This document shows, piece by piece, positions 53,687 through 56,736 of a stretch of DNA of 64,000 nucleotides. The stretch is from contig NZ_RCST01000001.1 in NCBI RefSeq assembly GCF_013141865.1, positions 2,542,001 through 2,606,000 on the forward strand, read 5' to 3'. Both the position numbers and the translations under genes were made by a program. The stretch comes from Methylomonas sp. ZR1. Lineage in GTDB: Bacteria > Pseudomonadota > Gammaproteobacteria > Methylococcales > Methylomonadaceae. Position 1 is the stretch's first letter. Each line of letters starts with the position of its first letter. The notes below the pieces were generated by a model that made no database searches, was not told the origin of the DNA, and saw only the letters and a program-made list of their open reading frames with translations.

Positions 53687-54172
53687 ATGCGGCTTACCAC
53701 AAAAGGGCGTTACGCGGTCACCGCGATGCTGGATTTGGCTTTTCACAGTCAAGCCAACCCGGTGACTTTGACTGACATTGCGACTCGACAAACCATCTCC
53801 TTGTCTTATCTTGAACAATTGTTTGCTCGTTTACGCAAGGCCGGCATGGTGAAAGGTGTTAGAGGGCCCGGCGGCGGGTACACACTTAGTCGCAGTGCCC
53901 GGGAAATTAATATTGCCGACATTATCGAAGCAGTCGACGAACCTGTTGATTCGACCAAATGCGGTGGTAAAGCCAATTGCCACAACGATGAACCTTGCCT
54001 GACCCACGATTTATGGATGGGCTTGAGCGAGCAAATTCGCGCTTACTTAAAAGAAATCAGTCTTGGGCAGTTGCTAGAGCGCGATTTTGTCAGTGACGTG
54101 GCAAAAAGACAGAGCAAACAAGTCGAGCATGTCATCGAAATGCAACCTCGGCAGGAAAAACGCATCGCGTAA
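53687..54172 (+). CDS. iscR: Fe-S cluster-sensing regulator IscR
   Basis: The 161-residue Rrf2-family regulator has a winged helix-turn-helix ([40 protein letters not shown]) and the cluster-ligand set [13 protein letters not shown] near 92-104, the expected C-x5-C-x5-C. With a [2Fe-2S] cluster it represses the isc operon; apo-IscR controls other promoters. The C-terminus is longer than the core by a basic tail. Its stop overlaps the iscS start (TAATG). Confidence 0.95.
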
Positions 54173-55275
54173 TGATCTATCTGGATCATAACGCCACCAC
54201 CCGTTGTGACGAGCGAGTGGTGGAAGCGATGTTGCCCTATTTGCATGGCATGTACGGCAATCCATCCAGTTTGTATAAGCTTGGCCGCATAGCCCGCAGC
54301 GCTATCGACACCGCCAGGGAACAAATCTCCGGGCTGATAGATGCACCAGGAGCGCAGATTGTATTTACCAGCGGCGGCACTGAAGCAAATGCGTTGGCAC
54401 TAGCCAACGCCCGTGAACGCGGGCTGGCAATTTCTGCAATCGAACACCCCTCCATTTTCGAAAACGCCGCATACTTCCGGCAGTGTTTTCGCAACTTGCA
54501 AACGCTTGAGGTGGATGGCGATGGAACAATTCCCTTACTCGCTCTGGACAAAGTAAATTGGCAAGCCGGCGACATGGCGTCGGTGATGTTGGCGAATAAT
54601 GAAACCGGCGTTGTTCAAGACCTTGCAGCCATCGCCGAACGTTTAGCTGAACGCGGAGTCAACCTGCATACCGATGCCGTCCAGGCCTTGGGTAAAATCT
54701 CATTTTCGTTCAAAAAGCTGGGCGTTAAATTGATGAGTTTATCCAGCCACAAAATATACGGGCCAAAAGGTTGCGGGGCATTGGTCGTTGCAGAAGATTT
54801 TGTTTTAAAGCCCTGGCTGCGCGGCGGCGACCAGGAGCATGGCTGGCGGGCTGGTACGGAAAACGTGGCGGCGATAGTGGGTTTTGGTAAAGCAGCCGAG
54901 TTGGCTAAGACAGAAACAGACGCAAGACAAGCTCGCATGCTGGCGCTGAGAAAGCGTTTGGAGCAAGCTCTAGACACCATTCCGGGCTTGGTGATCTTTG
55001 CCGAACACGCCCCAAGATTGCCGAATACCGTGCAGTTTGGTATCCCCGGCATTAGCGGCGAAATGTTGTTAATGCAGTTGGATCAGCGCAATATCGCGGT
55101 TTCCAGTGGCTCCGCCTGCTCGGCGTCGTCCGGCGAAATCAGCCCGGTGTTGACGGCTATGGGAGTGGAAGCCTCCTTGGCTAAATCGGCTATCCGCGTC
55201 AGTTTGGGTAAAGACAACCAAGAAACCGAAATCGATCAATTCGTCGATGTGTTAAAAACATTGATAGCAAATTAA
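54172..55275 (+). CDS. iscS: cysteine desulfurase (short IscS/NifS type)
   Basis: The 367-residue PLP enzyme releases sulfur from cysteine for Fe-S assembly. [20 protein letters not shown] opens the fold; HTDAVQALGKI and SSHKIYGPKGCGAL carry the PLP-binding aspartate and lysine (K near 194). The sulfur-accepting cysteine is in SSGSACSASSGE near 313. It is about 40 residues shorter than E. coli IscS and resembles the NifS-like group with a short loop. It is coupled to iscR by one shared base (TAATG). No iscU follows, so its acceptor scaffold is elsewhere or it feeds another pathway. Confidence 0.92.
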   Translation: MIYLDHNATTRCDERVVEAMLPYLHGMYGNPSSLYKLGRIARSAIDTAREQISGLIDAPGAQIVFTSGGTEANALALANARERGLAISAIEHPSIFENAAYFRQCFRNLQTLEVDGDGTIPLLALDKVNWQAGDMASVMLANNETGVVQDLAAIAERLAERGVNLHTDAVQALGKISFSFKKLGVKLMSLSSHKIYGPKGCGALVVAEDFVLKPWLRGGDQEHGWRAGTENVAAIVGFGKAAELAKTETDARQARMLALRKRLEQALDTIPGLVIFAEHAPRLPNTVQFGIPGISGEMLLMQLDQRNIAVSSGSACSASSGEISPVLTAMGVEASLAKSAIRVSLGKDNQETEIDQFVDVLKTLIAN

Positions 55276-55290
55276 TTAGGAGAATGAGCA

Positions 55291-55614
55291 ATGGCTATTA
55301 CCGTCACCGAAAGTGCCGCCCGGCAAATCCAAAAACAGTTACAAAAGCGCGGCACAGGCTTAGGCTTGAGATTGGGCGTGAAAACATCCGGATGCTCAGG
55401 GTACGCCTACGTGTTGGATTATGCCGATCAGGCCGAAGCTGATGAGGTGGTATTCGATCAACACGATGTAAAAGTACTGGTTAAACAGGCTGATCTGGAT
55501 AAATTGAGCGGCATTGAGCTGGATTATGCGAAGGAAGGTTTTAACGAGGCCTTTAAATTCAACAACCCCAATGTAAAAGGCACCTGCGGTTGCGGGGAGA
55601 GTTTTTCGGTTTAG
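55291..55614 (+). CDS. iscA: A-type Fe-S carrier IscA
   Basis: The 107-residue protein shows the three canonical cysteines at 35 (TSGCSGYAY) and 99/101 ([11 protein letters not shown]). It carries Fe-S clusters or iron to target proteins. AGGAG precedes its ATG. It is the last gene of the short isc operon; hscBA and fdx are absent downstream. Confidence 0.95.
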
Positions 55615-55623
55615 CGGATAAAA

Positions 55624-55656
55624 ACGCCGGCTTTGCAATCTCAATAAAGCCGGCGT
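55624..55656 (-). terminator. terminator of the HvfA-like gene
   Basis: ACGCCGGCTTT and AAAGCCGGCGT pair over 11 bases with an 11-base loop. On the minus strand a T-rich tail follows, downstream of the HvfA-like gene. On the plus strand it lies just after iscA and may also stop that transcript. Confidence 0.75.
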
Positions 55657-55665
55657 CATCGGCGC

Positions 55666-56010
55666 TTACTTCATATTAGCGCCGCAATTTCCTTCCATTT
55701 TTTTACCGTCAGCGGCTTTGTCGGCGGCTGGAGCGGCCGGTTTGTTACCAGCACACTTGCCTTCGGTAGCGGCTTTGCTATCAGTGCTTTTTTTCATCAT
55801 GGACGCACCGCATTTCCCTTCTCCGCAAGAACCGTCTTTCATTTTATCGGCACCCGCTTCAGGTTTCGCTTCGGCAGTCAGCATATAGCCTGAGCTCAAC
55901 TCAGACAAAGCAAACGGGTTGCTGTCAGCTTGAGCAAAATTGCCCGCCAGCGTTGGCAGCAGAGATGCGCCGATTGCAATGGCGAACGGGGTTTTGTTGA
56001 TTTTCTTCAT
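55666..56010 (-). CDS. HvfA-like Cys-rich RiPP-type precursor (oxazolone/thioamide metallophore family)
   Basis: The 114-residue protein has a signal peptide (about 1-29) followed by NPFALSELSSGYMLTAEAKP, the leader-like LSSGYM block, and a low-complexity tail with four cysteines: DGSCGEGKCG (C62, C67), TEGKCAG (C86) and MEGNCGA (C109). The EGKCG repeat after an LSSGYM element is, as I recall, the mark of HvfA precursors, whose cysteines are changed to oxazolone/thioamide groups by HvfB (DUF692) and HvfC and which bind copper. No hvfB/hvfC lies in this window, so this is an orphan copy here. AGGAG precedes ATG 56010. It is divergent from def. Confidence 0.75.
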   Translation of the reverse strand: MKKINKTPFAIAIGASLLPTLAGNFAQADSNPFALSELSSGYMLTAEAKPEAGADKMKDGSCGEGKCGASMMKKSTDSKAATEGKCAGNKPAAPAADKAADGKKMEGNCGANMK

Positions 56011-56208
56011 ACTATCTCCTGTGGAAAAAACGAATTGTTCTAATAATCGGTTTGCAACCGGAGCCCTGCATTTCCGGCAACTGGCCTGTTGTTAATATCA
56101 CAAAAAAGCCTTGTAAAGTAAAGGCAGGAAGATTACGCCAATCGGCAGTATACTCTCGCCCGAAACGACTTATTTCCGCAACCCGCCTATACGCTATCCG
56201 GCACAACC

Positions 56209-56736
56209 ATGACTTCGAAAACACCGATTGCCCAACTGGGAGCCGAGGTATTGCGGCAGCAGGCGCAGCTTGTTGACGACTTTGCCTGCCCGGAGTTCCA
56301 TAAACTGATTGAAACCCTGCATGAGACTATGCTGGAGGCTAATGGTGTCGGCATAGCCGCCCCGCAATTGGGTGCTTCCCGGCAAATTATGATCATCGCT
56401 TCCCGGCCGACAGCCCGTTATCCCCATGCTCCGGAAATGCCGCCGATTCTGATGGTCAATCCAAGTTTTAAGATTGTCGATAACTCATTGCATAAAGACT
56501 GGGAAGGCTGTTTAAGCGTGCCGGGTATCCGGGCGCTAGTGCCGCGTTACCGGGCTATCGAAGTGCAATATCAAGATCAGCAAGGTGAAACCTACCGCTT
56601 AGCCTTGCAGGATTTTCCAGCCCGCGTCTTCCAACACGAGTTCGATCATCTGTTGGGATTGGTCTATCTGGATAGGGTGGAAAATAACCAAGATATTATT
56701 GCCGAGACCGAATTTTTCAAACGCATCGCCGCATAG
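56209..56736 (+). CDS. def: peptide deformylase
   Basis: The 175-residue metalloenzyme removes the formyl group from nascent N-termini. Motif 1 GVGIAAPQLG (about 47-56), motif 2 EGCLSVPG near 102 and motif 3 QHEFDHLLG near 144 bind the metal and carry the catalytic glutamate. The gene is not beside fmt, so it is probably a second deformylase. It lies 11 bases before the metallohydrolase gene and so may be co-expressed with the quinoprotein relay. Confidence 0.95.
   Translation: MTSKTPIAQLGAEVLRQQAQLVDDFACPEFHKLIETLHETMLEANGVGIAAPQLGASRQIMIIASRPTARYPHAPEMPPILMVNPSFKIVDNSLHKDWEGCLSVPGIRALVPRYRAIEVQYQDQQGETYRLALQDFPARVFQHEFDHLLGLVYLDRVENNQDIIAETEFFKRIAA

Follow-up and report, generated by a model that had tools for sequence, protein, structure and literature searches.

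RiPP precursors are usually sought next to enzyme genes, and the particulate methane monooxygenase of methanotrophs needs copper. In the methanotroph Methylomonas sp. ZR1, the window (the whole stretch of 64,000 nucleotides analyzed here) harbors a small cysteine-rich gene of the hvfA type that an original prediction had singled out as an orphan precursor, with hvfB and hvfC absent from its surroundings. The locus raises the question of whether the gene product is modified by enzymes encoded elsewhere in the genome, is exported without any modification, or works together with its neighbors. We use hvfA2 as a label for this orphan gene and HvfA2 for its product.

The Orphan Gene and Its Product

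ORF listing and translation place the gene on the minus strand and confirm a real reading frame for a product of 114 aa with four Cys (Table 1). The LSSGYM block and EGKC/EGNC units of the original prediction are present; the protein start has, by eye, a typical signal-peptide-like look that is conserved across alignments, with cleavage placed (again by eye) between AQA and D. The LSSGYM block is followed by DGSCGEGKCG, EGKCAGNK and EGNCGA, i.e., by repeats of the Lys-Cys-Gly motif type, and all four Cys have Gly or Ala directly after them. Within core unit 1, only residue 61 varies among 16 aligned sequences, and both of its Cys are found in 36/36 genus sequences.

The assignment to HvfA-type precursors held at the level of the domain but not of the equivalog: HvfA2 contains EGKCG-like units and matches NCBIfam NF050137 (HvfA-family KCGExKCG domain; 22.8 bits versus a cut-off of 19.5), but scores below the cut-off of NF050188, the HvfA equivalog (34.8 versus 95 bits), for which reason we keep HvfA2 apart from HvfA proper. 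A Pfam search yielded no match and hence no DUF2282 (Bufferin Buf1) domain. The closest named genome for hvfA2 is that of Methylomonas sp. LW13 (98% identity).

Table 1. Features in and around hvfA2 (window positions).
Feature	Position	Strand	Remark
hvfA2, orphan hvfA-type gene	55666..56010	-	114 aa, 4 Cys
Probable Sec signal peptide, residues 1-28, MKKINKTPFAIAIGASLLPTLAGNFAQA	55927..56010	-	cleavage guessed by eye
NPFALSELSSGYM box, residues 31-43	55882..55920	-	same type as in hvf operon precursor
Core unit 1, KMKDGSCGEGKCG, residues 56-68, Cys 62 and 67	55807..55845	-	
Core unit 2, EGKCAGNK, residues 83-90, Cys 86	55741..55764	-	module of sister-genus cis precursors
Core unit 3, MEGNCGANMK, residues 105-114	55669..55698	-	its Cys in 22/36 genus sequences
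Ribosome-binding site AGGAG	56016..56020	-	by eye; conserved among relatives
Promoter-like element TTTACT-N17-GATATT, GGCTTTTTTG before second hexamer	56094..56122	-	83 nt before ATG
12-bp hairpin then T run, probable terminator	55623..55657	-	between convergent hvfA2 and iscA
IscA-type protein, convergent neighbor	55291..55614	+	
Peptide deformylase (def), divergent neighbor	56209..56736	+	

Upstream of hvfA2, TTTAC[AT] or a near form, a spacing of exactly 17 bases and GATA[TG]T were found at 32/36 loci of the genus; one of the remaining four is cut by a contig end and three differ. With up to 3 mismatches allowed, the ZR1 element is the single match in its genome, and it lies below the threshold of a generic sigma-70 scan, which returned nothing at this position. 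One scan listed the upstream element as a terminator/attenuator hairpin; we rejected this reading, since other species preserve the 17-base spacing but not the hairpin. Downstream, the hairpin between hvfA2 and iscA has a z-score of -4.04, with 0/200 shuffles equally stable; it is absent from the generic terminator scan, as its loop exceeds the limit of that scan.

Conservation and Neighborhood in the Genus

Sorted by context (all 37 genus genomes give matches), hvfA2 was present in 35/37 genomes at 36 loci, two of these in G009 (81% complete, 6% contaminated). Only G027 and G031 (each 78% complete) lack it, and all 31 genomes with completeness of 90% or more and contamination of 5% or less have it. 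The operon precursor occurs in 36/37 genomes and a third precursor class, accompanied by a separate hvfBC, in 12; HvfB is matched in 34/35 of the hvfA2-bearing genomes. Median pairwise dN/dS of hvfA2 is 0.097 (181/630 pairs passing a dS filter of 0.1–1.5), with 0.105 for the leader (210 pairs) and 0.180 for the core (238 pairs); three Cys columns are present in 36/36 sequences and the fourth in the 22 with that segment. Thus, hvfA2 evolves under purifying selection. These data bear on the notion of hvfA2 as a functionless paralogue, either decaying or redundant, of hvfA1, the precursor gene of the hvf operon. It could draw on the C-terminal truncation by an in-frame stop in G011 and on the C-terminal Cys missing in 14/36 sequences, yet the low dN/dS, the occurrence in 31/31 genomes of high completeness and low contamination and the invariant promoter-like spacing at 32/36 loci leave it with next to no credibility.

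The box pattern of the NPFALSELSSGYM type was found in 36/36 orphans and 35/36 operon precursors, versus 0/12 third-class precursors. Likewise, average identity over the first 48 residues is 54% between HvfA2 and its genome's operon precursor (n = 35 pairs), against 31% for the third class (n = 12). Upstream of the precursor genes, we found no element common to hvfA2 and hvfA1, and the three precursor classes of the genus differ in this region (25/36 operon loci aligned); since the promoter-like element is absent from the hvf operon, co-regulation of hvfA2 and hvfA1 is unsupported. Third-class loci (L047–L057, L089) share a conserved upstream TTTGTAAGGAAT...CTCCGACTGA element, which we take to resemble an ECF sigma-factor promoter, with TGTAACAAAA in 2/12.

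The gene had also been described as lying beside isc and quinoprotein-relay genes, which is correct as a description. Farther neighbors are iscR (by eye), a cysteine desulfurase gene, and genes for quinoprotein relay system zinc metallohydrolase 2 (TIGR04559, 415.5 versus 280 bits) and a SoxYZ protein. The isc cluster (window 53687-55614) has the order iscR, cysteine desulfurase, IscA; by eye, there is no iscU between the desulfurase and IscA genes and no hscBA/fdx directly after them. A function of HvfA2 with these neighbors, in Fe-S assembly or a PQQ/quinoprotein relay, might be proposed on the grounds that the def-hvfA2 neighborhood is fixed in the genus (def adjoins hvfA2 at 34/36 loci, the other two ending at contig edges). 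However, the genes stand in opposite orientation, being convergent or divergent, and hvfA2 has its own terminator-like hairpin. IscA adjoins hvfA2 at 31/36 loci and lies beyond a contig edge in 2, but was not found in the 1.5–2.3 kb fetched around hvfA2 in G017, G030 and G034. Stand-alone relatives in other genera (named here by group labels, g1–g29) have other neighbors: mgtE in 16/16 g17 loci read of that type, 14 with mraZ on the other flank; ppk2 at 3/6 g15 loci; and, in g23, ppk2 and/or slp beside four and recQ beside three. On these grounds the neighborhood looks incidental, and because the neighbors change between genera we rejected the isc/PQQ link as the main reading; a functional tie of this kind seems extremely unlikely.

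Enzyme Pairs Encoded Elsewhere in the Genome

Profile searches with PF05114 and PF09836 identified two MNIO genes on the chromosome, each adjoining a DUF2063 match. The genome-wide check with HvfA and DUF692 models that accompanied the original prediction accordingly left the prediction unrefuted, with an HvfA-domain match and two MNIO/DUF2063 pairs. The term orphan, in turn, applies to the neighborhood and not to the genome: the pair of MNIO and PME1 (DUF2063) is absent from hvfA2's own cluster but present in the genome, where an intact hvf operon (C1:3847680-3850494; hvfA1, a DedA-type gene, hvfB, hvfC) with a precursor of the same leader type lies 1.25 Mb from hvfA2 on the same chromosome. 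Its HvfB scores 435.9 bits (NCBIfam cut-off 360) and its HvfC 312.1 (cut-off 142). At the thresholds applied, neither NCBIfam nor Pfam assigned the hvfA1 product (193 aa, 8 Cys) to a family; it is the only other match to HvfA2 in the genome at E ≤ 1, with 46% identity. Other hvf operons are described with a DoxX gene at the place that, in many but not all genomes of the genus, is taken by a DedA/VTT-domain gene between hvfA1 and hvfB (e.g., L005:6292-6879).

The second pair belongs to a bufferin-type operon (C1:3038980; L006:4669-7332) with genes for a DUF2282 precursor (Pfam 88.4 of 22.4), BufB (388.7 of 310), an HvfC-like partner (46.5 of 142) and a DoxX-like protein (by eye). On the equivalog model of MbnB, the methanobactin enzyme, both MNIOs of the genome stay far below the cut-off of 325 (48.0 and 67.6); they are covered by the HvfB and BufB models. 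As the BufBC pair exists in the genome, HvfA2 might be modified by it, or by both MNIO pairs. We consider this very unlikely, given that the DUF2282 precursor lacks the NPF..GYM box (by eye) and that 13 hvfA2-bearing genomes of the genus, some of them incomplete, show a single HvfB match at E ≤ 1e-20 (two in the ZR1 genome).

Separate and Joined Modules across the Family

Within the genus, orphans and operon precursors are distinguished by two modules: the CAGxK unit occurs in 36/36 orphans and 0/36 operon precursors, the MMKG unit in 0/36 and 36/36, respectively. In the family (237 genomes), HvfB was matched in 222 genomes and the HvfA2 profile, which also takes in operon precursors, in 225. 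The DNA pattern EGxCA[..]NK or close variants were found in 99/237 genomes, with the reversed control pattern matching twice. Among the 79 rows outside the genus, strict CAGNK was located at most 610 bp from hvfB in 26 genomes (g8, g10, g11, g20, g24; cis) and away from the matched hvfB in 31 (g15 6, g17 14, g23 7, g29 4; trans), the count leaving out nine strict CAGNK rows with hvfB unplaced or absent in the genome and 13 variant rows (CAANK, CARNK), two of which have an in-frame stop and probably arose by chance. None of these 57 genomes carries strict CAGNK in both cis and trans, and hvfB did not appear in the flanks read around any of the 31 trans genes, which reached at most about 4 kb in either direction and in some cases stopped at a contig end. 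In draft genomes, location on another contig is weak evidence of distance; same-contig cases are the ZR1 genome, G131, G136, G139, G145 and G236. Three sponge-symbiont genomes of g23 combine the CAANK variant in cis with CAGNK in trans.

All 12 strict-CAGNK cis precursors that were read have the MMKG unit in the same ORF. Of 13 more operon loci in other genera, nine join MMKG to a CAGxK-type unit within a single ORF; the other four have two tandem precursors (1), no MMKG (2) or no CAGxK (1). With both modules joined in these operon precursors, HvfA2 therefore resembles the front part of such a precursor. The CAGxK unit is missing in 10/46 stand-alone precursors of other genera. Six genomes have strict CAGNK but no HvfB match at E ≤ 1e-20 (G024, 83% complete; G051, 98%; G093, 79%; G151, 90%; G196, 91%; G235, 94%), perhaps owing to assembly gaps. 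In an HvfB tree of 74 rows, with trans and cis labels assigned by genus and deep forks open, four changes between the two states were counted (3–4 over bootstrap trees); a single origin is compatible with this tree.

hvfBC Loci Lacking an Adjacent Precursor

A Methyloprofundus-type genus (g17) often has hvfBC genes apart from any recognizable precursor, five such loci showing no EGKC-type motif in 4.2–4.4 kb. Of 12 g17 genomes searched, ten encode one MNIO and two encode two, and all 12 give two to four HvfA-profile matches each (E ≤ 0.01). Nine have no HvfA-like match within 40 kb of the MNIO gene on the same contig, often since the contigs differ. In G145 (2 contigs, 100% complete), the single MNIO gene lies at C1:3581176 and the four HvfA-like genes at C1:3492071, 2228444, 1233991 and 4016276, the nearest at a distance of 88 kb. 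Exceptions are 3/12 genomes, G147 and G153 with a match 400–650 bp from the MNIO gene and G139 with one beside its second MNIO gene. For the g17 hvfBC, one may consider action in trans, a cis substrate that escapes profile and motif search, or no substrate at all; as hvfBC is conserved there, trans action is the more likely.

Among the unlinked precursors of g17 are some of the MMKG type and some resembling lipoproteins. Short EGKCG-type precursors in which, by eye, the signal peptide terminates in a sequence similar to a lipobox (LTAGC, LVTGC or LATGC) are encoded at L302, L303, L304 and L313 (genomes G149, G155 and G145), with no hvfBC in the stretches fetched around them; judged by their sequence, they are possibly membrane-anchored lipoproteins of the captophorin type. 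At L273 (G150), hvfBC follows genes for a DoxX-like membrane protein and putative sigma/anti-sigma factors (by eye), without an adjoining precursor.

Discussion

HvfA2 is probably a second, separately promoted substrate of HvfBC, which would act on it in trans before its export as a copper-binding peptide. This reading is built on the hvfA2 gene and its conservation, the intact HvfBC genes, the leader match, the core module and the precursor-less hvfBC loci of relatives; what we infer are transcription as a single gene, trans modification, thiooxazole chemistry, copper as the metal and a buffering role. HvfA2 would then be the second precursor of a captophorin/oxazolin-type RiPP, transcribed alone from its own promoter. 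The HvfB/HvfC pair encoded 1.25 Mb away would recognize the HvfA2 signal peptide and NPFALSELSSGYM region in the cytosol, and HvfB may oxidize some or all Cys in their CG/CA contexts to 5-thiooxazoles. After export and trimming via the Sec system, the mature peptide might buffer or supply periplasmic copper by binding Cu(I), beside the larger 8-Cys hvfA1 product. The copper role is taken over from the family. The original idea of a metallophore or metal-storage candidate in a methanotroph is plausible for an EGKCG-type precursor-like protein, while in the accessible text of PMC13097082 the products of HvfBC (and FonBC) are given as 5-thiooxazoles, in place of the oxazolone/thioamide chemistry it invoked.

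Trans modification followed by export is the best reading because of the published need for a signal sequence, the Cys-Gly/Ala contexts and the leader likeness. According to the accessible part of PMC13419390, HvfBC modifies HvfA poorly once the signal sequence is removed, and a signal peptide acting as leader is cited there for bufferins. For FonBC, the available text of PMC13097082 describes a preference for a small residue after Cys, with Gly or Ala accepted and many variants tolerated before Cys, a minimal substrate of two repeats, and copper bound to a peptide of the FonBC/HvfBC type. Ser and Asn, which precede Cys in the SCG and NCG contexts of HvfA2, are not among the FonBC variants described in that text. 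We also count against the HvfBC-substrate reading the equivalog score below cut-off, the CAGNK-bearing genomes without HvfB match, the three g23 genomes with CAANK in cis and CAGNK in trans, the stand-alone precursors without CAGxK, the g17 cis exceptions, the lack of a promoter-like element common to hvfA2 and the hvf operon, and the presence of only 3–4 Cys, few for a storage protein.

The low number of Cys, together with the lack of an adjoining enzyme gene, would also suit an HvfA2 that is exported but never modified, a metallothionein-like periplasmic HvfA descendant holding metal on free thiols; in line with this, the accessible text of PMC12452194 states that modification may be confined to part of the precursors, with a different purpose possible for the unmodified ones. 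We regard it as unlikely, though the least so of the alternatives, because purifying selection maintains a leader and core contexts that resemble HvfBC substrates, hvfBC persists in genomes without an adjoining precursor, and the CAGNK module also sits in cis precursors. As to expression, four of the ten genes with the highest transcript levels in Methylomonas DH-1 encode hypothetical proteins, which the text leaves unnamed (PMC6373157, accessible portion).

Among known systems, HvfA/oxazolin (hvfABC operon, Buf_EGKCG/oxazolin family) is like HvfA2 in the Sec-type start, the EGKCG-like units, the NF050137 match and the presence of HvfB/HvfC in the genome; unlike it, HvfA2 is encoded 1.25 Mb from hvfBC behind its own promoter-like element, scores below the equivalog cut-off and has only one true CGEGKCG pair plus the CAGNK unit. 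Prochlorosin precursor genes are scattered. There, one promiscuous enzyme, ProcM, is thought to serve several precursors (PMC10783134, in the text available), as proposed here for HvfBC, but the chemistry is another and the product is a lanthipeptide, not a metal-binding peptide. Captophorins such as fontiphorin FonA, 5-thiooxazole metallophores, share with HvfA2 a Cys followed by Gly/Ala, short units and an enzyme pair of MNIO and PME1; in the accessible text of PMC13097082, however, FonA-type precursors lie in enzyme clusters, and modification of HvfA2 is a prediction. Closest in arrangement are the stand-alone bufferin-like precursors of PMC12452194, whose genes are likewise unlinked to an MNIO gene and for which the available text proposes both modification by enzymes encoded elsewhere and no modification. 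Unlike the genes treated in that text, hvfA2 has conserved orthologues at one fixed position throughout its genus, and its module occurs inside the cis precursor of sister genera. Trans modification has thus already been proposed in print as a possibility, and what looks new is the methanotroph case together with the natural tests it offers; our search of the open literature, a scope that leaves most subscription papers outside, found among the matches listed no paper on an unlinked hvfA-type precursor in methanotrophs.

Taken together, the split arrangement recurs in related methanotrophs, and this suggests that one HvfBC enzyme pair can serve scattered precursor genes. Going further, HvfBC of gammaproteobacterial methanotrophs may be a hub for 2–4 precursors, some or all unlinked and separately promoted, that would provide distinct, independently regulated copper-binding pools and include lipoprotein-like forms in Methyloprofundus-type genomes, with the CAGNK and MMKG modules either split or fused; we give this wider notion an even chance of being right. 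Genomes with one MNIO and no adjoining precursor make the modification of stand-alone precursors, as raised in the accessible text of PMC12452194, a directly testable question. Should scattered precursors indeed be modified by a single HvfBC pair, some of the products would escape genome mining, and methanotrophs would hold several separately regulated copper-binding peptides.
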